Positions 32,024 to 45,237 of a stretch of DNA of 64,000 nucleotides are shown one piece after another. Made by a program: the position numbers and the translations under genes. The DNA comes from Synechococcus sp. HJ21-Hayes. GTDB taxonomy: Bacteria; Cyanobacteriota; Cyanobacteriia; PCC-6307; Cyanobiaceae. The stretch spans positions 62,001 through 126,000 of the forward strand of contig NZ_JAGQBW010000006.1 in NCBI RefSeq assembly GCF_024345835.1. The letters are read 5' to 3'. The notes under the pieces were generated by a model that worked only from the letters and a program-made list of their open reading frames with translations, ran no database searches and had not been told where the DNA came from. The first letter of the stretch is position 1. Each line of letters begins with the position of its first letter.

Positions 32024-33832
32024 ATGACCGATGCACCCGTCTCCCGGATCCGCAATTTCTGCATCATTGCCCACATCGACCATGGGAAATCGACCCTGGC
32101 CGACCGGCTGCTGCAGGACACCGGCACGGTGGCGGCCCGCGACATGCAGGAGCAGTTCCTGGACAACATGGAACTGGAGCGGGAGCGCGGCATCACCATC
32201 AAGCTCCAGGCGGCCCGCATGGAATACAAGGCGGCCGACGGTGAGGCCTACATCCTCAACCTGATCGACACCCCCGGACACGTTGATTTCAGCTACGAGG
32301 TGAGCCGCTCGTTGCAGGCCTGTGAGGGGGCCCTGTTGGTGGTGGATGCCAGCCAGGGGGTGGAGGCCCAGACCCTCGCCAATGTGTATCTGGCGATCGA
32401 GAACAACCTCGAGATCATTCCCGTTCTCAACAAGATCGATCTGCCCGGTGCCGATCCCGAGCGCATCGCTGAGGAGATTGAGGCGATCATCGGCCTCGAT
32501 TGCACCAATGCCATCCACTGCTCGGCCAAAACAGGCCTCGGCGTTCCCGACATCCTGCAGGCGGTGGTGGATCGGGTGCCGCCCCCGCCGGACAAGGTGG
32601 CCGAGCCCCTGCGGGCACTGATCTTCGACTCGTACTACGACCCCTACCGGGGCGTGATCGTGTACTTCCGAGTGATTTCCGGCTCGATCAGCAAGAAGGA
32701 CAAGGTGCTGCTGATGGCCAGCAAGAAAACCTATGAGCTCGATGAAGTGGGCGTGATGGCGCCCGATCAACGCCAGGTGGAGAGCCTGCATGCCGGTGAG
32801 GTGGGCTACTTGTCGGCATCCATCAAGGCCGTGGCCGATGCGCGCGTGGGCGACACCATCACCCTGGTGAACAATCCAGCTGATGCACCTCTGCCTGGCT
32901 ACACCGAGGCCAAGCCGATGGTGTTCTGCGGCCTGTTCCCCACGGATGCGGATCAGTATCCGGATCTGCGCGAGGCGCTTGACAAGCTGCAGCTCTCCGA
33001 TGCGGCCCTCAAATACGAGCCGGAAACCAGCAGTGCCATGGGCTTTGGCTTCCGCTGCGGCTTCCTGGGGCTGCTGCACATGGAGATTGTGCAGGAGCGG
33101 CTCGAGCGGGAATACAACTTGGATCTGATCGTCACCGCGCCATCGGTGATCTATCAGGTGAACATGATTGATGGCGACACCATGATGGTGGACAACCCCG
33201 CTACGCTGCCCGATCCACAGAAGCGCGAATCGATCGAAGAGCCCTATGTGAAGCTCGAGATCTATACGCCTAACTCCTACAACGGCACCCTGATGGAGCT
33301 GTGCCAGGAGCGGCGTGGTGAGTTCATCGATATGAAGTACATCACCACCGATCGCGTCACGCTGCACTACGAGATGCCCCTAGCGGAAGTGGTGACGGAC
33401 TTCTTCGATCAAATGAAGAGCCGCACCAAGGGCTATGCCTCCATGGAATACTCCCTGATCGGCTACCGCAAGAACGAGCTGGTGCGTCTGGATGTGCTGA
33501 TCAACGGTGAAAAGGCTGATCCCCTCACCACGATCGTGCACCGCGACAAGGCCTACAACGTGGGTAAGGGGCTGGTGGAGAAGCTCAAGGAACTGATCCC
33601 GCGCCAGCAGTTCAAGATTCCCATCCAGGCCTCGATCGGCAGCCGCGTGATCGCCTCCGAAAGCATCAGTGCCATGCGCAAGGATGTGCTTGCCAAGTGC
33701 TACGGCGGCGACATCTCCCGCAAGAAGAAGCTGCTGCAGAAGCAGGCCAAGGGCAAGAAGCGCATGAAGGCGATGGGCAAGGTGGATGTGCCCCAGGAGG
33801 CCTTCATGGCGGTGCTCAAACTCAACCAGTGA
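32024..33832 (+). CDS. lepA: Elongation factor 4
   Basis: Ribosome-associated GTPase. The G1 P-loop is [21 protein letters not shown]3 is [16 protein letters not shown], and G4 and G5 follow ([14 protein letters not shown]). The LepA-specific C-terminal domain includes [20 protein letters not shown] and [15 protein letters not shown]. 602 residues, full length. Preceded by a divergent small gene and followed by a 530-base gap. Confidence 0.98.
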
Positions 33833-34364
33833 GCCACATTGCAACGGCTGCGGCGGCCCTGTAATCGTGCCGCCGGCTCCGAGCTCTGGACGATTCCTTG
33901 CGCCGGCCTTGAGCAGTTCGTGGCCGATATGCGGTGGAGCTGGTGCCCCTCGCCAACTTTCTAGTATTCACCGGCTGGTGTGGCGTTCCTGCAGCAGTAA
34001 ACCCAGGCCTTCCGGCCGCTTTTAGCCCACGGCCATGATCGACGGGTGGAAGGGTTGCGGGCGGCGATCCTGCACACCGCCAAGGGCGGCACGATCTCCG
34101 CGATGGCCATGCTGCGCGAGCTGCCTTCCACCGTCGTGGTTGAACTGGGCGTACCTCCCAAGCAGCGCTCCAGCCTGGCTTGCGAGAACCCACAGCAATG
34201 CACGTTGACGCTGAGCTGGTGAGTGTTCTTGCCGGTCTGTCTGCAGGCGGCGGCACCCGACCCTTTGCTGCCTACGGCAGCACCTTGATGCGATCTCGGA
34301 CCACATGATGACCAAAACCTAGACGGCAGGGGAATGCTCAGCCCATGGTTTGCCGGAATGCTCC
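33833..34364. other. Intergenic gap between lepA and the pilus locus, no gene supported
   Basis: All frames in these 532 bases lack convincing coding character. The best is a 58-codon plus-strand frame from a GTG at 34046 to a TGA at 34220-34222 (starting VEGLRAAILHTAKGGTISAM), without a recognisable ribosome site or family. I do not call it. No tRNA, terminator with T-run or repeat of note is seen. Confidence 0.4.
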
Positions 34365-34811
34365 ATGGTTCAGCGTGTTCATCCGCCCCGGGATGGCGGA
34401 TTTGTGTTGCCCCTGTCGATCACAGGCGCCCTGGTTTTGCTGCTGAGCAGCCTGTCGCTCCAGACGTTGGTGCTACATACCCGTCGGGTGCAGGCGTCTG
34501 AGCGCACGCGACTGCGTGCGGACGATCGCCTGGCCTCGGCGGCGCACAGGGTTGCGGCGGCATTCCAGGGGCGCTTCGCTTGTCTGCAGGCTGTGCCACT
34601 GGCCGCTTGGCGGGTTGGGGCGCTGCCAACCAGCTGTCCTGGTGATCTGGATCCACGCCCCTTGCAGCGGCTGTCGATTGATGGCCAGGTGGTGCAGTTG
34701 GCCGCATGGGAGCCGCAGCAGGGTGGCGGTGCATTGCGGCTGCAGCAGGCCGTTGGTGGCTTGACACGCCGCTACTGGCTGGGTGCGTCAGGTGTGAAGG
34801 AGCTGGGCTGA
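34365..34811 (+). CDS. Minor pilin-like protein, PilX type
   Basis: The N-terminus has a prepilin-type boundary: DGG then FVLPLSITGALVLLLSSLSL as the transmembrane N-helix. The position-5 residue is not Glu, as in PilX/GspK-like minor pilins. The rest is about 100 residues with no motif. I start at the ATG at 34365. It is the first of four same-strand pilin-like genes and overlaps the next by one base (TGATG). A role in pilus initiation is inferred from family and context. Confidence 0.7.
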   Translation: MVQRVHPPRDGGFVLPLSITGALVLLLSSLSLQTLVLHTRRVQASERTRLRADDRLASAAHRVAAAFQGRFACLQAVPLAAWRVGALPTSCPGDLDPRPLQRLSIDGQVVQLAAWEPQQGGGALRLQQAVGGLTRRYWLGASGVKELG

Positions 34812-35233
34812 TGCAGTTGGTGGAAGTGATGATGGCCGCGGCCGTGTTCACGGCGGCATCCGGCGGTTCCTTGCAGGTGTTTGCCCGGATGGCAAGCAGC
34901 AGTCAGCAAGCCGAGCTGCGGCAGCGCCAGCTGGAGCGTATCGAGCTGGACCGTCTGCAGTTGCAGGCCCTCTGGCGACGGGAGCTTCTGGGCCAGGCGG
35001 TCTGTATCAGCAGCATTGATCAGATCAGGGCAATGGCTGCGACGCTGCCGCCGCCGCCTCAGGTGGTGCGGGACCTGCGCGCTGGTGATCAAGTTGATGA
35101 GCTGAGGTTGCGTTGGCGGTTCGAGGGTGAGCCTGGGGTTGTGCGAGAGCGCTTACTGACAATGGCCGGTCTGGGAGCTTCCTGTAAGGCCACCGCGCCG
35201 CTTACCGACAGCCAAGTGGAGGGGGTGGAGTGA
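34811..35233 (+). CDS. Minor pilin-like protein that starts at the mature N-terminus
   Basis: The protein begins MQLVEVMMAAAVFTAASGGS. If Met is position +1, the conserved Glu falls at +5 of a pilin N-helix. The usual leader peptide with Gly at -1 is missing: no GTG or TTG start lies nearby in this frame, while a GAAGGAG ribosome site stands eight bases before the ATG. It may be inserted without prepilin-peptidase processing, or the call of start may be wrong. It overlaps both neighbours in the pilin operon. 140 residues, function inferred as minor pilin of PilV type. Confidence 0.6.
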   Translation: MQLVEVMMAAAVFTAASGGSLQVFARMASSSQQAELRQRQLERIELDRLQLQALWRRELLGQAVCISSIDQIRAMAATLPPPPQVVRDLRAGDQVDELRLRWRFEGEPGVVRERLLTMAGLGASCKATAPLTDSQVEGVE

Positions 35234-35739
35234 TGCGCCATACCCCCACCGCCTATGGCCCTGATGGGTTCTCTCTGACCGAGCTGCTCATGGGGGTCGT
35301 CGTCCTGGGGCTGCTGGCAACGTTGGGCTGGAACGGCGGCCGCGAAAGCCTGGCTCGCCAGCGGCTTGAGGCAGCCACACGCCGGCTGGATCAGGGCATC
35401 CAGCGAGGCCGCGCTGAAGCCCAGCGGCAGGGGCGTGCCTGTGGCCTGAGCCTGCAACCGGATGGTTGGGCACCGCCTGCGCTGAGCACACTGCCAGCGT
35501 GTGTTCAAACGCTGGAGAGCTTGAAGGAGCCGATTGCTGCAGGCGACGTGCGGCTTGTGCATAACTTCCCGGCGATGTTGCGCTTCAGTAGCAACGGGCT
35601 GGTACTCGATGGCGGCACGGCCGTGGTCAGTGCTGCTGGAACGTCTTTGCAGCGTTGCCTGGTGATGGCTCTGCCACTGGGGATCACCAGGCTGGGCCAG
35701 CATCGGAGCGGTCGCTGTGAACCCGACCCCTCGCTGTGA
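35233..35739 (+). CDS. FimT/GspH-like pseudopilin
   Basis: The prepilin site is DG then FSLTELLMGVVVLGLLATLG, with Glu at position 5, followed by RQRLEAATRRLDQGIQRGRA, typical of FimT/GspH pseudopilins. 168 residues from the ATG at 35233; a GTG one codon earlier is possible. FimT-like minor pilins take part in pilus assembly and, in some bacteria, DNA binding for transformation. It overlaps the next gene's start. Confidence 0.8.
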   Translation: MRHTPTAYGPDGFSLTELLMGVVVLGLLATLGWNGGRESLARQRLEAATRRLDQGIQRGRAEAQRQGRACGLSLQPDGWAPPALSTLPACVQTLESLKEPIAAGDVRLVHNFPAMLRFSSNGLVLDGGTAVVSAAGTSLQRCLVMALPLGITRLGQHRSGRCEPDPSL

Positions 35740-36379
35740 AGCCATGGCCGGCTTTTCCCTAGTGGAGCTGATGCTGTCGTTGAGCCTGGGATTGGTGCTC
35801 AGCGGAGTGATGCTGCAAGGTTTGATGGCTGAGGGCCAGAACGGAGCCCGTTTGTCTCGTTTGCTGCGCGAACGGGCCTGGCAACGGCGCACACTTGAGC
35901 TGGTGAAGAGCGATCTCGCTCAGGCCATTGTTGTCAGCGAAACGCCGGAACGCGAGCCGCATGGCTGCAACCTGGCGGGCAGGCAGCCGGTTCTGCACCT
36001 GAGCACCGCAGCTGGACCGATCACCTATTCGGTGGGTCCGGCACCTAGTGCGATCTGGCGAGGCCGGGTGCTGATGCGCTGCGGGCCTGCGTTTGGGCTG
36101 GATGGGCAGTTCACCCATGGCTCCCAGCTACTCAATCGCGTGGTGATTGATGCTCTGGCGGTTCAGCCCCAGGGATCCATGGATTGCGCGCAATGGCTTG
36201 GTTCAGCTAGGGACATTGCTATGCGTCAGTTGGCGGGCCTTTCAAATCAGCCATTCGCGGCCTGCTTGGATCCGCACACCGGTTTGATCGCCCTGAGGAT
36301 TGAGCAGCGGTTTGATGGAATGAGGATGGAAAAACAACAACGGATTGCACTTGAGCTTGTGGTTGGGACGGGAGTGTGA
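35717..36379 (+). CDS. PilW-like minor pilin
   Basis: Prepilin site AG then FSLVELMLSLSLGLVLSGVM, Glu at position 5. The 220-residue protein is PilW/PilJ-like in length, with paired cysteines in the body. It starts at the GTG at 35717 and overlaps the previous gene by 23 bases. It ends the four-gene plus-strand pilin set and converges on the regulator gene at 36509. Confidence 0.8.
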   Translation: MNPTPRCEAMAGFSLVELMLSLSLGLVLSGVMLQGLMAEGQNGARLSRLLRERAWQRRTLELVKSDLAQAIVVSETPEREPHGCNLAGRQPVLHLSTAAGPITYSVGPAPSAIWRGRVLMRCGPAFGLDGQFTHGSQLLNRVVIDALAVQPQGSMDCAQWLGSARDIAMRQLAGLSNQPFAACLDPHTGLIALRIEQRFDGMRMEKQQRIALELVVGTGV

Positions 36380-36508: not shown

Positions 36509-37225
36509 CTATCCTTCCTGTCGCATCATGAAGCCAACGCCACGAACGGTATGAATCAGTTTTGCAAGGCCCGGCCTTTCGATTTTTTGGCGTAAATAGC
36601 GAATGTAGACGTCCAGCAAGTTGTTGTCTCCGTAGAAGTTGTCTCCCCATACGGCCCGCATGATCTCTTGGCGGGAATGAACCTTGCCTGGCGTCTTCAT
36701 GAGGAACGAGAGGAGTTGATACTCCTTGTTCGAGAGTTGTATTTTGCTTTCTCCTCTTGTGACGTCGTGGCTGGCAAGATTTAGCAAGAGATTGCCAACT
36801 TGAAGAGTCTCGGCGTTGGTTCGCGGCCCTGTTCCAGATGACGAGCGTCGATACAGCGCTCGCAGCCGTGCAAGTAGCTCATCGATGGAGAAAGGTTTGG
36901 TCAGGTAATCGTCAGCACCGCTATCCAATGCACTGACGCGATCTTTGATGTCATCATGGGCTGTCAGCATGAGAATGGGTATGGAGATCGCGGTTGCACG
37001 TATGCGCGCACAGATTTCAAGACCGCTGAAGTCCGGTAGGTTCCAGTCAAGAACCATCAGGTCGGGACTTGGTTCACTGCGGAGGGCGATTAAGCCGCTA
37101 GCCCCGTCTTTGGCAACGGAAACTCTGTAGCCCTCAACTTCCAGTTCGCTTTGAAGTAGAGCTGTGATGAGATCCTCGTCGTCAATAACAAGAATATGAG
37201 GTTGGTCGTTGTCTGGCTCGGTCAT
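36509..37225 (-). CDS. OmpR/PhoB-family response regulator
   Basis: Receiver domain with acidic pocket HILVIDDEDLITALLQSE, phosphoacceptor Asp in LMVLDWNLPDFSGLEI, and conserved Lys in YLTKPFSIDELLARLR. The C-terminal winged helix is complete (SNKEYQLLSFLMKTPGKVHS, then LLDVYIRYLRQKIE and the HTVRGVGFMM hairpin). It is a DNA-binding transcription regulator. It is the last gene of the minus-strand array that begins with pilin genes and includes the sensor kinase 123 bases upstream. Confidence 0.95.
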   Translation of the reverse strand: MTEPDNDQPHILVIDDEDLITALLQSELEVEGYRVSVAKDGASGLIALRSEPSPDLMVLDWNLPDFSGLEICARIRATAISIPILMLTAHDDIKDRVSALDSGADDYLTKPFSIDELLARLRALYRRSSSGTGPRTNAETLQVGNLLLNLASHDVTRGESKIQLSNKEYQLLSFLMKTPGKVHSRQEIMRAVWGDNFYGDNNLLDVYIRYLRQKIERPGLAKLIHTVRGVGFMMRQEG

Positions 37226-37347: not shown

Positions 37348-38787
37348 TTATGGTTCCGTTGCGATGGACAAGTGGAGCTCAAAGCGGCTGCCGACGCCAG
37401 GCGTACTGCAAACCTCGATCCGACCACCCATGGCATCAATGAGCACTTGGACGATTGAGAGTCCTAAGCCTGAACCCGAGCTGCGTTGGCTGGTGGCTCC
37501 CCGATAGAAACGCTTGAAGATATGAGGCAGTTCTTCGGCGTGGATTCCATCGCCGTGGTCGCTCACTGCGATCACATACACATCAGCCTGTGTGCTGATG
37601 CTAATTTCTATTGGTTTGCCCTTTGCTGAGTATTTATCGGCATTCTCAATTAGATTGATGATCACTTGCTTGAGTTGATCTGGGCACGCCAAAATCATGA
37701 GATGTTGACCTTCTGCTATCTCATTGGAATTCAAGGTGACCAGTCTGCCCATGGTTTGGCTGCTCTGGGTGATCACATCTCTGAGCAAAGGAAGTGGATC
37801 TATCGCCTCGAGACTAATTGCCAATTGGTGACAGTCACTGCGGGAGAGTGAGAGGAGATTCCCAAGCAGCCTGGCCATCCGTTGCGCCTCTTGTTCGGCA
37901 ATGGTCAGATTCTCTCTGTCATTGGTCTGAAGTGTTGTGCTTCGGCGCAGGGTTCGCTGCAGGTAGCCTGAAACGATGGTCAGCGGTGTTCTCAGTTCGT
38001 GAGAAACACTACTGACAAAACTCTGCTGCTGCTGCCAGGCTTCTGTTAGACGGTTGATTAGTTGATTATAGGCAGCGGCCAGTTCTGTGACTTCTGATGG
38101 GGAGTACTGAATGGCAATATGGCTCTGCGGCAAATTGTCTGAATTTACAGTTGCTGCTGCTTTACTAAGCTGGCGTAGTGGCCGTACGATACGTCTCACC
38201 AATCGCGTGGTCAGCTGCAGACTTAGCAATAGGGCTCCACCCCAAGTCAGGGCCAGCAGCAGGTACTGGTGATTAATGGCAGTTGTGAAAGCTGTGATGT
38301 TTTGAGCCACACCAATTTGAAGACCAGGAATTTCAGATTCACTCACTATCGAGAGAATGGTGGTGCCATCGCTGAGATGGGTGTAGGTGGGCTTGCTTTG
38401 TTGGTTGCGATTGCCGCGACTAGCCAATTGCCAGATGACGTCGGGTGGTACGGAGCCTTCTGATCTGCTTGGTAATAAGTGACTGCCATCATCGAGTTCG
38501 AGCCAGACCGTGTGCTGCCAGTTTGTTTGTTGTTCACGAGCTTGCAATAATTTGCGGTCACGTTCAAGACCTGGTAGTTCCACAACTGCTTTGGCTTCCT
38601 TGCTGATGCCCTGGTTCACAAGCTGGCTTTGTTTGTGAAGCTCTTTTAATAGGTTCTGATTACTGACCCATAAAGTGGCCAGGCTAGCGACTGTAAAACC
38701 AGTTACCACTACCAAGCCAGTGGCCAGCTGTAGCTGCCCTTCGATACTGCTAGGCAGTAGCTTTTTCCAGCCTGAATTCATTCTCAT
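37348..38787 (-). CDS. Sensor histidine kinase
   Basis: I start at the ATG at 38787 (MRMNSGWKKLLPSSIEGQLQ), which overlaps the upstream receiver gene's stop as ATGA. It has an N-terminal membrane segment (LATGLVVVTGFTVASLATLW), a periplasmic region of roughly 120 residues, a second membrane segment (YLLLALTWGGALLLSLQLT) and a HAMP-like linker. Phospho-acceptor His is in FVSSVSHELRTPLTIVSGYL. The ATP domain has N box VIINLIENADKYSAKG and G boxes SDHGDGI and GSGLGLSIVQ. All motifs are intact. Confidence 0.95.
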   Translation of the reverse strand: MRMNSGWKKLLPSSIEGQLQLATGLVVVTGFTVASLATLWVSNQNLLKELHKQSQLVNQGISKEAKAVVELPGLERDRKLLQAREQQTNWQHTVWLELDDGSHLLPSRSEGSVPPDVIWQLASRGNRNQQSKPTYTHLSDGTTILSIVSESEIPGLQIGVAQNITAFTTAINHQYLLLALTWGGALLLSLQLTTRLVRRIVRPLRQLSKAAATVNSDNLPQSHIAIQYSPSEVTELAAAYNQLINRLTEAWQQQQSFVSSVSHELRTPLTIVSGYLQRTLRRSTTLQTNDRENLTIAEQEAQRMARLLGNLLSLSRSDCHQLAISLEAIDPLPLLRDVITQSSQTMGRLVTLNSNEIAEGQHLMILACPDQLKQVIINLIENADKYSAKGKPIEISISTQADVYVIAVSDHGDGIHAEELPHIFKRFYRGATSQRSSGSGLGLSIVQVLIDAMGGRIEVCSTPGVGSRFELHLSIATEP

Positions 38788-39149
38788 CTGGATGATAGGT
38801 GCATCTGCAGTAACGCTGGCAGGTTCTGCAATAGGTCTGATTTCAGGATGCAGCTCGTTGCTCCTGATTCGTAGGCTTCTCTCCAAAGCTTTGGATCGCA
38901 CAAGGCTGTAAAGATGATGACTTTTGTGGTGATGCCTCTTTCGCGCAGATTGCGCAGGCATTCAATTCCACCAATGCCGGGCATCAGAAGATCCAGGAAA
39001 ATCAATCGAAATAGTGCTTCGTGAGCGATGGCTAGTATTTCTTCGGCGCAGCCAAATTCCGTAGTTATATAGCCTTCGTCATTCAGTTCTGCCGACAAGA
39101 GTTTCCTGATTCTGATATCGTCGTCAACAATGGCGATGGACTTTTCCAC
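38784..39149 (-). CDS. Stand-alone receiver-domain protein
   Basis: The 121-residue protein is only a receiver domain: SIAIVDDDIRIRKLLSAELN, phosphoacceptor Asp in LIFLDLLMPGIGGIECLRNL, switch Thr in VIIFTALCDPKLW, and conserved Lys in SCILKSDLL. No output domain is present. It starts 48 bases after the vWA-pilin stop and its stop overlaps the kinase start, so it is embedded in the same transcript. Such proteins can act as phosphate shuttles or bind partner proteins. Confidence 0.88.
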   Translation of the reverse strand: MEKSIAIVDDDIRIRKLLSAELNDEGYITTEFGCAEEILAIAHEALFRLIFLDLLMPGIGGIECLRNLRERGITTKVIIFTALCDPKLWREAYESGATSCILKSDLLQNLPALLQMHLSSR

Positions 39150-39196: not shown

Positions 39197-40825
39197 TCAG
39201 TTGACAGATGTATAAGCTTGGTTCACAAGTTTGTAAACGCCGCTCGATCCATCGCTGATCAGCTTTAGCCAAACGGAGTCTTGGCCTATTGATACTGTAT
39301 TGACGGTCAAGCGGTTTGACCGGCTGTTGTTCATATTGAGATAGGTATTGGCGGTCCGCTGGTAATCAGAAGCTGACCAGCTGCCACCATTTCGGTCGTT
39401 ATTGGGGTCGCCATCCGTCATGAAATACAGGCTCTTGGCTGTGGCTACTCCCATGGCCTTGTCAAGACTTGACCATGGACTTGTTCCTCCCCAGCGAGTG
39501 ACATCGCCGCTGGAGAGTGTATTCACAAATGCTAGCGCGCTGCTTCGGTTGCTATTGGTGAGGGGCGTCATGTTTCCATTCATCCAGGCTCGATGGTTGA
39601 GATAACCAGGAGAGCTGAATACCTGGAGGCTGATGTTTGCTGCACTTGGTAAGGATGTCAGCAGGTTGCGAAGTTCATTCTGCAACGACTCCATCCTCGT
39701 GACCAGACAGTTGCGCCGGGTACTCATGTATGACGAGCCGTTAAAGTAAATTCGCGACGAGCTATTTGTTGTTGTGCCCCAAGTGATGCAGGCACTCATT
39801 GATCCCGATCCATCCACAATGATCTGGAGGGAATCGCTGTTCATTGGTATTCCGTAAAAGCTGCATGTACTGCCCGTGCAGCCAGAGAGTGTTGTTGGAG
39901 ACGCTGTTCCAGCGGGGTCCCCATTCATTACTTCATAGTAGGAATCACTCCTGGCCACCTTGTCGGCACGCGCGTAGGCCATTAAGTTGAGTTCCACGGT
40001 CGCAGCTTTGTTGCTGCCGGGCAATTGCAGAAAGCTTTGCTGAACATTGTCGCCATCTTCGGTTGGATCGACGAGTTTCAGCATCTTGCGAATTGGATCT
40101 GTCTGTATCGCGATCGCTGGCTCCCTGTAACGCCCGATCTTGCTTCGATTGTTACTGTCAAGACTTGTATCCACCGCGTCGACAATTTGGCCGAGGCTTA
40201 GGACCTCTTTGTTATTGCCTTTGGGAGGCTCACAGGTGCCATCATCTTGATCGCAAGGGATTGTGCCAATGTTTTCAAGAATCGTGGCCAGAATAAGATC
40301 TTCAGTCTCGTAGCGACCATCTGCATTAAGTGGAGGGCCGCAGCGTATCAGTGCATAGTTCAACCCATTTTTCGCCAAGCCTAGACCGTAGATCACTGGT
40401 GTGTTTAGTTCGGCCATCTTCATCCCAAACATGGGGGTAAAGCTTCCACTCCCTTTGAGAGCTTTGCATTCCGCGATGACGGATGCGTACAATGGCTGAT
40501 CAGCATTGTCGAGGTTCGTGTAGTCACGATCAGAATCGTGGGTCCCCCCTCGTACAATCATGTATAAGCTTCGCTGAACTTCGGATCGAAGCATGCGCAT
40601 GCCACTAGTGGCGTTTGCTCTCAGGCTTGAGAGCTCACTACTGTGCTGAATCGATGAGCTGATCGTGCGGAGACCTGCGGCACCAGCTGTGATGAGTACA
40701 GCCCCAGCTGCTACCCCAATCACAGTCTCAGTGAGGCTATATCCTGAGTATGGATGTGACCGTCTGGCTGCTCTGCCTTTGCTGAGCTTGTTGAGGGCTG
40801 GCAGTGGATTTTGCATCGGCCTCAT
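39197..40825 (-). CDS. Pilin-like adhesin with von Willebrand factor A domain
   Basis: The N-terminus is a type III prepilin: YSG then YSLTETVIGVAAGAVLITAG, with Glu at position 5 of the mature form. The middle is about 260 residues with several cysteines. A von Willebrand factor A domain follows: MIDAS residues D338, S340, S342 (in VDGSGSMS), T448 (in WGGTSPW) and D471 (in FMTDGD), all in the right order. vWA domains bind ligands through a metal ion in adhesion. This is therefore a modular pilin likely to present an adhesive tip. Pilin-vWA fusions are known in Gram-positive type IV pili such as Streptococcus sanguinis PilB. 542 residues. Confidence 0.88.
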   Translation of the reverse strand: MRPMQNPLPALNKLSKGRAARRSHPYSGYSLTETVIGVAAGAVLITAGAAGLRTISSSIQHSSELSSLRANATSGMRMLRSEVQRSLYMIVRGGTHDSDRDYTNLDNADQPLYASVIAECKALKGSGSFTPMFGMKMAELNTPVIYGLGLAKNGLNYALIRCGPPLNADGRYETEDLILATILENIGTIPCDQDDGTCEPPKGNNKEVLSLGQIVDAVDTSLDSNNRSKIGRYREPAIAIQTDPIRKMLKLVDPTEDGDNVQQSFLQLPGSNKAATVELNLMAYARADKVARSDSYYEVMNGDPAGTASPTTLSGCTGSTCSFYGIPMNSDSLQIIVDGSGSMSACITWGTTTNSSSRIYFNGSSYMSTRRNCLVTRMESLQNELRNLLTSLPSAANISLQVFSSPGYLNHRAWMNGNMTPLTNSNRSSALAFVNTLSSGDVTRWGGTSPWSSLDKAMGVATAKSLYFMTDGDPNNDRNGGSWSASDYQRTANTYLNMNNSRSNRLTVNTVSIGQDSVWLKLISDGSSGVYKLVNQAYTSVN

Positions 40826-40903: not shown

Positions 40904-41548
40904 TTATTGATTGTGGCGACAGCTTCCTGCTGCGAAGTTGCCGCCAATCCATGTTCCCCTGATGAGGGAGCCGGTCATTGGCTCCAAGCTGAGACAGCGT
41001 TCGAACCCCTTTGCCTGATTGTGGAGTGTTCGTGAGCGTACGCGGATAATCAGTGGCTGATTACTGGTTGTTGCGTCGGGTGCTGAGACCCCTCCAACGG
41101 TGGTCATCGAAATGGAAGTCGGTGAAATGAGCAGCCTTAGATCGTTTCGTTGTTGGTTTGTTAGGGATCCTTTTAGGTTGGTCATCCTCAGTTCTGTTGA
41201 GGCCATATCTAGTCCATTCATGTCGGTCGGTTGCGGACAGTCCGTTCCTTCGCCTGTTGTGTCGATCTGTAGGCTTTCCAGCGCCATGGGATTAATTTCC
41301 ACCTCAGATCCTGCGCCGCTTGGGAAATTGATTTTGCAACTGTCCTGTCTGCCAATCATATTCGCTTTCAGTTGATTAATGCCTGCTTCCAGTTTGCTGG
41401 TATAGGAGTCCACCGCAGCTTGCTTGAACCTTTGCTGTAATTGGGGGATTGCGGCTGTTGCAAAGGCCGCACTGATCGCGAGGGTAATTAGAAGTTCCAG
41501 GAGGGAGAATCCGGTGCTCTCATGCGTGCATTTCATGGCAATGGGCAT
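40904..41548 (-). CDS. Minor pilin-like protein
   Basis: Prepilin site STG then FSLLELLITLAISAAFATAA, Glu at position 5. The 214-residue protein has four cysteines in the body, two of them near the ends (QDSCKINF and AGSCRHNQ) that may form a disulphide. It overlaps the previous gene in the array by 16 bases. Function inferred as minor pilin. Confidence 0.85.
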   Translation of the reverse strand: MPIAMKCTHESTGFSLLELLITLAISAAFATAAIPQLQQRFKQAAVDSYTSKLEAGINQLKANMIGRQDSCKINFPSGAGSEVEINPMALESLQIDTTGEGTDCPQPTDMNGLDMASTELRMTNLKGSLTNQQRNDLRLLISPTSISMTTVGGVSAPDATTSNQPLIIRVRSRTLHNQAKGFERCLSLEPMTGSLIRGTWIGGNFAAGSCRHNQ

Positions 41549-42000
41549 TCGGACAGGAAGCTTGGGTTGATTTCTACAATCCGCTGTTCTGTTGAGGTGT
41601 CGCCAGTCATTTCAGATGTGCTGAAGCTGTAGGTGATCCTGAGGAGCGTCGCATCCGTTGCCACAAGCTGTCTTTCCCATGGTGCATCTGATGCCACTGG
41701 ATTCATGCTTTCGATCTTGCCCTTGAGGTATGTCGATCCTCCACCGGAGCCGCACCCGTTTAGATCGCTACTTAGGCTCGTGTCAATCCCCTGGATGATC
41801 TCAATATCATTGAGAATATCTGATTCTATCTGCATCCTGCTGGCGCCCTGGCGGCTATTGGCCATGCTCATCATTAATGTCCGGTTCGCGCTGGAAAGTA
41901 GAACAAACAGCACAGCTGCGGCAATCATCACTTCGACAAGGCTGAAGCCTTGCGCGGGGTGATGGTGGCCTAGGCCTTGGCTGTTGCGCATTCTTACCAC
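41533..42000 (-). CDS. PilV-like minor pilin
   Basis: Prepilin site QG then FSLVEVMIAAAVLFVLLSSA, Glu at position 5. The 155-residue protein has a helical N-domain and a short Ser/Thr-rich body, like PilV/GspI minor pilins. It overlaps the genes on both sides, consistent with one transcript. Confidence 0.85.
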   Translation of the reverse strand: MVRMRNSQGLGHHHPAQGFSLVEVMIAAAVLFVLLSSANRTLMMSMANSRQGASRMQIESDILNDIEIIQGIDTSLSSDLNGCGSGGGSTYLKGKIESMNPVASDAPWERQLVATDATLLRITYSFSTSEMTGDTSTEQRIVEINPSFLSECPLP

Positions 42001-43643
42001 CGCCTGAATAGATCCAGTCCGGTGCCGCGAATGCCACGGGTTACGGTGCGTCCAAACGTGAGGCTGCTATCCCACTTCCAGGTGTTGATGAAACCTTCAA
42101 CAATGGAGCCTCCACTTACATTGTTGGTTCTCAGTGTCAGCCCAGGCGCTGCACAGATGTTTTTCGCCCAGATCAGACCATGGATGCTTGTTGTTCCACT
42201 GGTTGATACGGAGCCTTGTGGCATCAACACCAGAGCAGCGGGAAGACTGGTTGCTGTGAGGCTCAGGACCTGGGTTGCTGCACCGCACGAACTTGCATCG
42301 TCACCATTGCTTGCCACAATGGCAAGTCGCTCTGCCATCGGTGAGCTGCTGCAGGGTAGGGGTGATGCCTGGGAGCTCTGATAGTCTGCCTGACAGAGCA
42401 GGCCATTATTCAGCCTGATCGAGTCTTGGGGGCGGAGCATCCTCAACACCACCGGTCGGGCTCCACTGCTGCTGCTGGTCTCGATCGAGAGCCTCGCCCC
42501 ATTTCGGAGCTGGATGCTTTCAATCCAGATCAGGCATGGCTCTGTGCTGACGCCATTGCAGAGTTGTTCGGCGTGCAGGCTGATGGCGGTCACAGAGCCA
42601 TTGACCCGTTTGACAGAGCTTGTGGATTCAGCGCTGGTCCAGCTTGTATCGGCTTCCCCTCGCGTGCAGATCGCTTCGCCGCTCAGCCCCGTGCCAGGAC
42701 TGAGGCCAGAACAGGTTGTGGTTCGTTTGTCGTCGATGTTCCAGATTCGCCGCTTTATGCTCGTTCCGCTGCCGATCTGATCGACGCGCGACAACTGATC
42801 AAAGATACCTGGACTGGGAAAGTCAGTGCCCACAACCGGCCAGAGACGTGCCTGAGTTGTTGAGTTGGTGCTGCCTGTGGCCCCTCCGAGGCTGCTGGTG
42901 CTACATGCGCCTGAGTTGCTGAATCGTCCCGCTCCGGCACTGTCCATCAGCCAAAGAACCTTGCCAGTTCCGGCGATTGAGCTATCGCCTAGATTCAGAT
43001 TCTTGGCTGCCATGACAGCCCACTGATCGTTGTTTCTCACATAGCGCTTCAGCGCTAAAACTCGGGTCAGCAGTGATCGTGCAAGGATTTGAGTGCCTGC
43101 ACTGTCACTTTGTGTGGCATATCCCTCAATGTAAAACGTGGCCTTGCTGTCTCCAGGTGAATAGCTGTATGAGCGAAGTCTGTATTGCATGCCAATCTTC
43201 TGCTCACGGCCATCCTGTCGCAGGCTTGTTGTGGGCGAAATGTCCCCCGCCAGTAGGTTGCTTTGGATGGTGCTTGTCAGGTTCAGCGGGTAGCAAGGTT
43301 GTTCCATGGCTGGCCTGAGCTGCGCTTCGCTGAGGTCCCATTGCTTGGTGGGCGTTCCTGAGGGTTGATATTCCTGATTCTGGCTTAGGTGCCAGAGATA
43401 GCTGATGTCGCTGCCTTCTATATCGTTAAGGGCTGCCAGGATGCGATTCAGGCCATTGCTGGATGCCATTTCGGCTATCTGCTTATAGCTTTCTGTGGCG
43501 CCTGTTCGCCGCAGCATCAGCAGTTTCGTTGCCAGCCCCGCGCTAGCAATCAGAAGGATGGCTCCAATGATGAGTGCAATCGGCAAGGCAAGGCCTGCCT
43601 CGGTTTTTCCGCGATGCTGTCTTGCTGTTATGTGTCGTTCCAT
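41994..43643 (-). CDS. Large PilX-like minor pilin
   Basis: I start at the ATG at 43643, 13 bases after the previous stop; an upstream in-frame ATG would overlap that gene. The N-helix is AG then LALPIALIIGAILLIASAGL, lacking Glu-5 as in PilX. The following 450 residues are Ser/Thr- and Gly-rich with several cysteines, which is much larger than usual PilX (about 170-200) and suggests an extra extracellular domain. No catalytic motif. It overlaps the PilV-like gene by seven bases. 549 residues. Confidence 0.75.
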   Translation of the reverse strand: MERHITARQHRGKTEAGLALPIALIIGAILLIASAGLATKLLMLRRTGATESYKQIAEMASSNGLNRILAALNDIEGSDISYLWHLSQNQEYQPSGTPTKQWDLSEAQLRPAMEQPCYPLNLTSTIQSNLLAGDISPTTSLRQDGREQKIGMQYRLRSYSYSPGDSKATFYIEGYATQSDSAGTQILARSLLTRVLALKRYVRNNDQWAVMAAKNLNLGDSSIAGTGKVLWLMDSAGAGRFSNSGACSTSSLGGATGSTNSTTQARLWPVVGTDFPSPGIFDQLSRVDQIGSGTSIKRRIWNIDDKRTTTCSGLSPGTGLSGEAICTRGEADTSWTSAESTSSVKRVNGSVTAISLHAEQLCNGVSTEPCLIWIESIQLRNGARLSIETSSSSGARPVVLRMLRPQDSIRLNNGLLCQADYQSSQASPLPCSSSPMAERLAIVASNGDDASSCGAATQVLSLTATSLPAALVLMPQGSVSTSGTTSIHGLIWAKNICAAPGLTLRTNNVSGGSIVEGFINTWKWDSSLTFGRTVTRGIRGTGLDLFRRW

Positions 43644-43656
43644 CTCGCCATCACGC

Positions 43657-44163
43657 TCAGTTGCAGTTAGGCGTCTTGGCACCTGCCTCACTGCTGCCGA
43701 GCTTGATGTCGGATAATCCCTTTTTGGTGTTGAGACAAGCTTTGATGTCCCATCGACTTGTAGAGCCCTGTCCTTTGGCCTCTGCCGTCATGGTCATGAT
43801 CTCTTGGTCTTGAGCCTGCACGGAGATTGTGTAATGGCCTCCATTGCTCGATGTGATGCTTGAGAAGCTTGTGCCACTGGCGCTTCCATTGTTTGTGGCA
43901 ACTGGTGTGATTCGTGCCAGCTCTGTCCACCCCGAGGGGTTGCCCAGGAATTCTTCCCTGTAGCCCTGGATGGCTGTTTGAATCTGCGAGAGCTGACTGG
44001 CTACATCCTTTTGTCGTGTCGACTTCATGGCATTGAGATAGCCAGGCAGTGCAAGAGTGCTGATGATCCCTAGGATCAGGACAGCGATCAACATTTCCGC
44101 CAGCGTGACCCCGCTGTTGCCATGTGTTCTCGGCCGTGCGTGACTCGGGCTGATGCTTTGCAT
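43657..44163 (-). CDS. Type IV pilin-like protein, PilE type
   Basis: I start at the ATG at 44163 (MQSISPSHARPRTHGNSG). The prepilin site is SG then VTLAEMLIAVLILGIISTLA, Glu at position 5. The 168-residue protein has a typical pilin body with a C-terminal Cys pair (IKACLNTKK and TPNCN). A second PilE-like gene just after the major pilin is a common arrangement. About 240 bases separate it from pilA, which leaves room for a promoter or processing site. Confidence 0.85.
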   Translation of the reverse strand: MQSISPSHARPRTHGNSGVTLAEMLIAVLILGIISTLALPGYLNAMKSTRQKDVASQLSQIQTAIQGYREEFLGNPSGWTELARITPVATNNGSASGTSFSSITSSNGGHYTISVQAQDQEIMTMTAEAKGQGSTSRWDIKACLNTKKGLSDIKLGSSEAGAKTPNCN

Positions 44164-44405: not shown

Positions 44406-44903
44406 TTAGGAGCCTCCTGTTCCTGTTCCTGCGTAAGTGATGTCTCCCGTCACATAGTTGACGGTGATTGTGCATGCCTCTTTGGCTGAAAGTGTATCTG
44501 AGCCGCACTTGACCCCGTCGGCTGTTGCTGGTTCCGTTCTGTAAGTCACGTCCTCATCCGGCTTGGTGGCTGTGTCGCCGTCATTGCAATTTCCGGAGAT
44601 TTTTAGTCCGGTTACTGTTGTATTGTCTGTAGTGAGTGTGTAAGAAGCTGGATAGGGCGATTCGCTGATGATTGCGGCTGCACATTCTTTGGCAAGGCCT
44701 GATGCTTCTCCGATCTGAGTGTTGATCTTGGCTTTGTCCTTGACCCCGAGGAATCTTGGCAGGGCGACGGCGCTGAGGATGCCAACGATCACGATCACCA
44801 CCATCAGCTCCACCAAGGTGAAGCCATTGCGAACAGTGGCCTGCGTGAGCTTGTTCAGCGCTGCTGGGCCAGCGAGGCGTCGTGAGCGTTTCTGATTGGT
44901 CAT
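44406..44903 (-). CDS. pilA: Major type IV pilin, PilA
   Basis: The start is the ATG at 44903 (MTNQKRSRRLAGPAALNK), giving a long leader. The prepilin cleavage site is NG then FTLVELMVVIVIVGILSAVA with Glu at position 5. The mature pilin is about 130 residues with cyanobacterial-style features: LPRFLGVKDKAKINTQIGEA and Cys residues in ECAAAI and KCGSD/EACTI. It is the major filament subunit for twitching, adhesion or DNA uptake, and heads the minus-strand pilin array. Confidence 0.92.
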   Translation of the reverse strand: MTNQKRSRRLAGPAALNKLTQATVRNGFTLVELMVVIVIVGILSAVALPRFLGVKDKAKINTQIGEASGLAKECAAAIISESPYPASYTLTTDNTTVTGLKISGNCNDGDTATKPDEDVTYRTEPATADGVKCGSDTLSAKEACTITVNYVTGDITYAGTGTGGS

Positions 44904-45237
44904 GGTGCTTTTCTGATGCAGAACGGCGCGCCGATGGCGCATCTCAAATCATTATTGCCCTGATTCTGCTGCAATTCCTGAAGCTGTCCTTTGCTTTCGG
45001 GTATTCTTGCTGAGCTGAGACTTAAGACTTGATGAGCGGGCAACCTGCGGTGGTGCTCTCGTCTCGCAGCAGCCTTTCAGTCCGCTCGCTGGGAGCTCTC
45101 GGCCGTGCGCTCTTCTTGGTGTTCCTCTCGCCGGGCCTGTGCGCAGGCCTGTTGCCGTGTGGGCTGGAGAGAGAAAAAGGCAGTGTGAGCCCCTCCGGCT
45201 TGGCCGCCAGCGGCCATCGGTGGCATGGTGAGGCCCA

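Follow-up and report, generated by a model that had tools for sequence, protein, structure and literature searches.

The window, a 64,000-nt stretch of Synechococcus sp. HJ21-Hayes DNA, encodes a type IV pilus (T4P) minor pilin in which a PilW-like pilin module is fused to a C-terminal vWA domain with a conserved MIDAS. The gene stands in a conserved pilin operon, and the fusion co-occurs with the pilus motor. Our preferred reading, at a probability of roughly 0.6, is that this protein serves as the J (PilW) subunit of the T4P priming complex and that its MIDAS-intact vWA domain gives the pilus tip a metal-dependent adhesive or surface contact without PilY1.

Architecture of the vWA pilin

The open reading frame opens with ATG and is divided as follows.

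39197–40825, reverse strand: vWA modular minor pilin (PilW/GspJ-like), 542 aa (ORF, 28-member family, AlphaFold2 (AF2), Foldseek, hhalign)
40742–40825, reverse strand: class III prepilin leader, residues 1–28, predicted cut G28^YSLTE, E33 being E5 (sequence, alignment)
39971–40741, reverse strand: pilin module, about residues 29–285 (AF2; homologous to the PilW_b and RTX-PilW pilin modules)
39218–39883, reverse strand: vWA domain, about residues 315–536, with a β-hairpin at 346–376 flanked by C346 and C373 (AF2, Foldseek, conservation)
39800–39814, reverse strand: MIDAS motif 1, D338-G-S340-G-S342 (sequence, alignment)
39482–39484, reverse strand: MIDAS T448, in the loop before helix 451–459 (AF2, alignment)
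39413–39415, reverse strand: MIDAS D471, directly after strand 465–470 (AF2, alignment)

The N-terminus, ...RRSHPYSG^YSLTETVIGVAAGAVLITAG, is a class III prepilin signal. Across 28 aligned sequences, comprising the vWA pilin and 27 relatives, E33 (mature E5) never varies, and at least 90% have G28; Pfam N_methyl is found in five of these members and not in the window's own protein. Since the prepilin motif is combined with a C-terminal domain that is not specific to pili, the protein is a modular type IV pilin. The original prediction of a prepilin N-terminus fused to a vWA domain is thus borne out, with the ORF, the G28^YSLTE site, the 28-member family, and AF2 and Foldseek all in agreement.

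The structure prediction that had been proposed as a check recovers the vWA fold. The AF2 model (mean pLDDT 78, mostly above 80 across residues 320–530) has the strand and helix order of vWA, and its strand 332–338 ends at D338. The best PDB matches found by Foldseek are TFIIH chains (E 6e-6), which we take to be vWA folds, and von Willebrand A1 domains (target TM 0.54–0.60); over all isolated vWA domains matched, target TM values span 0.54–0.66. Model, Foldseek and alignment place DxSxS, T and D at the canonical sites on the Rossmann fold, and all five MIDAS residues (D338, S340, S342, T448 and D471) occur at the positions first given for them. In a family alignment with a mean column identity of about 36%, the first four are invariant in 28 of 28 members and D471 is present in 27. 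Pfam, NCBIfam and PDB sequence searches recognised no vWA domain in the window's protein, to which Pfam assigned no domain of any kind, the best NCBIfam match being CglB (E 0.02); among the 28 members, Pfam recognises VWA_2 in 11 and VWA_3 in 10. The β-hairpin 346–376 comes after the DxSxS loop, and because its bounding cysteines, C346 and C373, are kept in 27 of 28 members, a disulphide between them is likely.

A PilW-like subunit in a conserved operon

Profile comparison by hhalign of residues 1–290 with each pilin family at the locus identifies the pilin half as PilW-like, at the GspJ position; in T4P, PilW corresponds to GspJ. The module aligns over about 146 columns both with the PilW-like pilin of a second operon, PilW_b (probability 97.3, E 2e-11), and with pilins that we term RTX-PilW (probability 98.5, E 2e-15), and shares an RCGP...DG motif with these matches. 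The remaining pilin families align over the N-terminal helix only, and NCBIfam PRK10557 matches weakly (E 0.05). The surrounding genes are these.

44406–44942, reverse strand: pilA-like pilin, 178 aa or shorter, with an ATG also at 44903 (N_methyl E 5e-8, operon)
43657–44163, reverse strand: pilE-like pilin, start inferred by inspection (N_methyl, operon)
41994–43643, reverse strand: large PilX/GspK-like pilin, without E5, β-rich; likely start ATG at 43643, with a GTG at 43691 (alignment, AF2, Foldseek)
41533–42000, reverse strand: PilV/GspI-like minor pilin, 155 aa (N_methyl E 6e-6; weak gspI; operon)
40904–41548, reverse strand: FimU/GspH-like minor pilin, 214 aa (N_methyl E 4e-5; conserved operon place)
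38784–39149, reverse strand: receiver-only response regulator (Pfam Response_reg E 4e-21)
37348–38787, reverse strand: HAMP histidine kinase, start inferred (Pfam HisKA, HATPase_c, HAMP)
36509–37225, reverse strand: OmpR-type response regulator (Pfam)
34350–36379, forward strand: second minor-pilin operon (PilX-, PilV-, GspH- and PilW-like), without vWA (ORFs, Pfam, operon comparison)
32024–33832, forward strand: lepA, conserved neighbour of the locus (gene-order comparison)

The five pilin genes upstream of the vWA gene lie on its strand, and several overlap. The order pilA-pilE-PilX-PilV-FimU-vWA(pilW), with the vWA gene last, recurs in about 19 genomes, mostly beside lepA, and its carriers include Synechococcus WH7803 and RCC307. 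The protein thus has what defines a PilW/GspJ-type core minor pilin, a PilW-homologous globular module with H, I and K partners encoded alongside, and this module, together with its last place in the six-pilin operon, places it in a minor-pilin tip set in which H, I, J and K are all represented. The second minor-pilin operon, likewise complete, suggests two alternative tip complexes per cell. Promoter and terminator scans gave no signal above that of shuffled sequences. Three genomes (G101, G169 and G222) hold the six-pilin operon in two tandem copies; in L035, L037 and L039 the whole operon is duplicated in this way, with a vWA pilin of its own in each copy. Downstream, 47 bp separate the vWA gene from the receiver-only response regulator, and the HAMP kinase and OmpR regulator are linked to the vWA pilin in several relatives as well.

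The large PilX/GspK-like partner is assigned to K, weakly, on the missing E5, its size and a faint fold match. In Foldseek, ComZ of Thermus (6qvi) is the only PDB match of its model below E 0.001 (E 7e-4, TM about 0.25), and a sequence match to ComZ was not found, making the likeness a model-based lead, not an assignment. Thermus thermophilus ComZ is, like this partner, a large pilin of modular build, with a modelled place at the tip, but ComZ binds DNA, and the resemblance involves the partner and not the vWA pilin (PMC6561018). A viral fold search with the partner gave no match. The partner also has several conserved cysteines. In WH7803, a pilA1-pilE mutant contains about three-fold less SynWH7803_1797 in cells and 2.5-fold less in the exoproteome; this protein, annotated as of unknown function, is encoded immediately downstream of pilA1-pilE. 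Judged by gene order, SynWH7803_1797 is probably the large PilX-like pilin, and its drop could be a polar effect; by the same reasoning the vWA pilin of WH7803 would be about SynWH7803_1800.

Distribution

A search of picocyanobacterial genomes for the same fusion, suggested at the outset, found strong matches, mostly full-length, in 29 of the 251 genomes sampled from the bacterial family, so the fusion is not a chance event. A single-sequence scan of the genome contigs found no relative; querying the same contigs with the alignment then did. Synechococcus WH7803 (G246; CT971583.1) carries the gene, and the fusion occurs in none of 15 other genomes of the window's genus. Beyond the family, among 386 genomes of the phylum, matches span the pilin part only. 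Every one of the 29 strong carriers encodes T4P ATPases (E 2e-55 or better). With phylogeny ignored, the 29 would all fall among the 186 genomes positive for an ATPase with a chance of about 1e-4. The window's own genome also encodes a secretin.

The fusion architecture persists in divergent Prochlorococcus-like members. Three of them (L050, L100 and L101) have an intact MIDAS motif, and DxSxS is broken in three others (L099, L102 and L107), which form a natural test of the importance of the metal site.

Relation to known vWA pilins and PilY1

vWA modular pilins are already on record from monoderms and from one Tad system. The original statement that they are best known in Gram-positive bacteria holds in that they are known there, but needs widening: modular pilins occur in diderms (PMC8179133), and the Gram-negative Caulobacter has a vWA minor pilin, CpaL, implicated in regulating surface sensing (PMC12607857). 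New here are the picocyanobacterial vWA pilin family, its PilW identity, the conserved operon and the RTX alternative. In a literature of partial coverage we found no description of vWA modular pilins in cyanobacteria, and the text of the WH7803 pilus paper does not mention von Willebrand.

A close parallel in design is Streptococcus sanguinis PilB, an adhesin modelled at the pilus tip, which likewise joins an N-terminal pilin module to a C-terminal vWA domain whose MIDAS is complete, shares its pilus with a second modular pilin and has a β-extension beside the MIDAS; our hairpin 346–376 recalls its ‘arms’ at that place (PMC8179133). Unlike the cyanobacterial protein, which belongs to a full HIJK-type set of a diderm, PilB carries no PilW/GspJ assignment (PMC8179133), and a PDB profile search with the vWA pilin alignment returned no matches, revealing no sequence kinship to the PilB family. 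Caulobacter crescentus CpaL resembles our protein in being a minor pilin of a Gram-negative bacterium, with a MIDAS-bearing vWA domain and a modelled position at the tip, but it belongs to a Tad (type IVc) pilus, its vWA domain is split by a β-rich insert and its role lies in surface sensing (PMC12607857). Finally, PilY1 of Pseudomonas and Myxococcus has a vWA domain with MIDAS, shown on a minor-pilin tip complex. PilY1 is not a pilin, however, and has a C-terminal β-propeller, for which the vWA pilin gave no Pfam match, whereas the cyanobacterial vWA is covalently part of a PilW-like pilin.

Function of the vWA domain

Under our preferred reading, PilD would cut the protein after G28, and the mature subunit would start pilus assembly together with PilV (I), FimU (H) and the large E5-less PilX (K) from its operon. 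As the assembly starter, this complex would end up at the filament tip. There the vWA domain would engage a ligand by way of a divalent cation and so equip the pilus for adhesion or surface contact in the absence of PilY1, doing the job of the PilY1 vWA while covalently attached to PilW. A tip-located vWA domain touching surfaces is what we infer by analogy with HIJK minor-pilin sets, which sit at pilus tips, with the tip vWA of PilY1, and with PilB and CpaL.

Of the initial proposal of a tip adhesin in place of PilY1, the first half gains from the complete MIDAS on a PilW-like core minor pilin, expected at the tip from hhalign and the operon. The second half is plausible: PilY1 gave no match in the window's own genome or in 292 cyanobacteria, but two control assemblies labelled Gammaproteobacteria were equally silent, which leaves its absence unproven. 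Ecology is in keeping with an adhesin: WH7803, a carrier of the gene, adheres to chitin and other surfaces, and no adhesin is known for this. Three points count against an adhesin. The WH7803 pilus is known to serve in flotation and grazing defence, and no aggregation of its cells occurred in liquid culture; the paper on this pilus leaves open how flotation and attachment pili differ. PilB stripped of its MIDAS metal still binds fibronectin and fibrinogen (PMC8179133). Lastly, the MIDAS is degraded in some divergent Prochlorococcus-like members.

The vWA domain might instead be mainly a mechanosensor or assembly regulator, reshaped by tension at the tip and signalling surface contact, perhaps via the linked two-component system. 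Such sensing has been proposed for PilY1 and CpaL, the latter being a vWA minor pilin with a role in regulating surface sensing (PMC12607857). With a receiver protein, a HAMP kinase and an OmpR regulator encoded just downstream of the vWA gene, there is room for regulated expression or contact signalling; in one relative the kinase lies 14 bp from the vWA gene, and the conservation of C346 and C373 would also suit a sensor. In many marine genomes, however, the linked kinase does not adjoin the vWA gene, no sensing output is known, and sensors usually need binding as well; we consider this reading unlikely.

We regard it as distinctly improbable that the tip complex serves natural transformation as a DNA receptor, in which the ComZ-like pilin would bind the DNA and the vWA pilin would be the scaffold. 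ComZ, a tip DNA receptor, is the best structural match of the large operon pilin, and competence in S. elongatus requires minor pilins, but that match is weak in fold and absent in sequence, and free-living marine picocyanobacteria, thought to have lost competence, retain the operon. A pilin for assembly only, with vWA as a structural cap and the MIDAS vestigial, would fit the three Prochlorococcus-like members with a broken motif; we think it very unlikely, as the MIDAS residues are kept (nearly) invariant in 28 members at such low overall identity.

Conserved in picocyanobacteria of both the sea and fresh water, the vWA pilin is a good candidate for the part through which these mostly planktonic cells make contact with surfaces or hold on to them. 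Encoded with pilA, it offers a single gene for testing attachment in the genetically tractable WH7803, and it points to a possible route by which diderms with no detected PilY1 could make a vWA-tipped pilus.

Alternative tip modules and evolution of the locus

Two genomes of the same genus (G009 and G064) carry a lepA-side PilV-GspH-PilW set whose PilW has RTX repeats at its C-terminal end (Pfam E 7e-13 and 2e-13), and a third genome (G163) has a similar protein (Pfam E 4e-9). The genes, encoding PilW-like pilins with C-terminal RTX calcium-binding repeats, are placed as follows.

L093, 9733–10980: RTX-PilW, at the lepA-side pilin locus
L094, 10017–11252: RTX-PilW, at the lepA-side pilin locus
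L095, 8934–10211: RTX-PilW

Their pilin module is homologous to that of the vWA pilin, but RTX repeats take the place of vWA, apparently an undescribed type of modular pilin. Strong RTX-PilW matches occur in 17 genomes. Two of these also have vWA-PilW, against 2.65 expected, so mutual exclusion of the two is unsupported; in both genomes the RTX pilin is encoded in a different pilin operon. The lepA-side locus is therefore one of tip-module diversity without mutual exclusion.

A broader picture, possible but on balance doubtful, is that picocyanobacterial T4P carry a two-winged tip, vWA-PilW plus ComZ-like PilX, built by their own minor-pilin set; that exchangeable lepA-side tip cassettes (vWA or RTX) set the contacts of the pilus; and that planktonic Synechococcus and deep-branching Prochlorococcus attach to surfaces or particles through the vWA tip, which would be the factor so far missing.

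In the vWA tree the window groups with a Cyanobium MAG, consistent with the LepA tree. RCC307 (L041) and G204 (L044), by contrast, differ in position between the two trees, and this discordance suggests exchange, although several branches are long. Two contigs labelled Coxiellaceae and Gammaproteobacteria (L064 and L071) bear a picocyanobacterial vWA pilin and are probably mis-binned MAG contigs.
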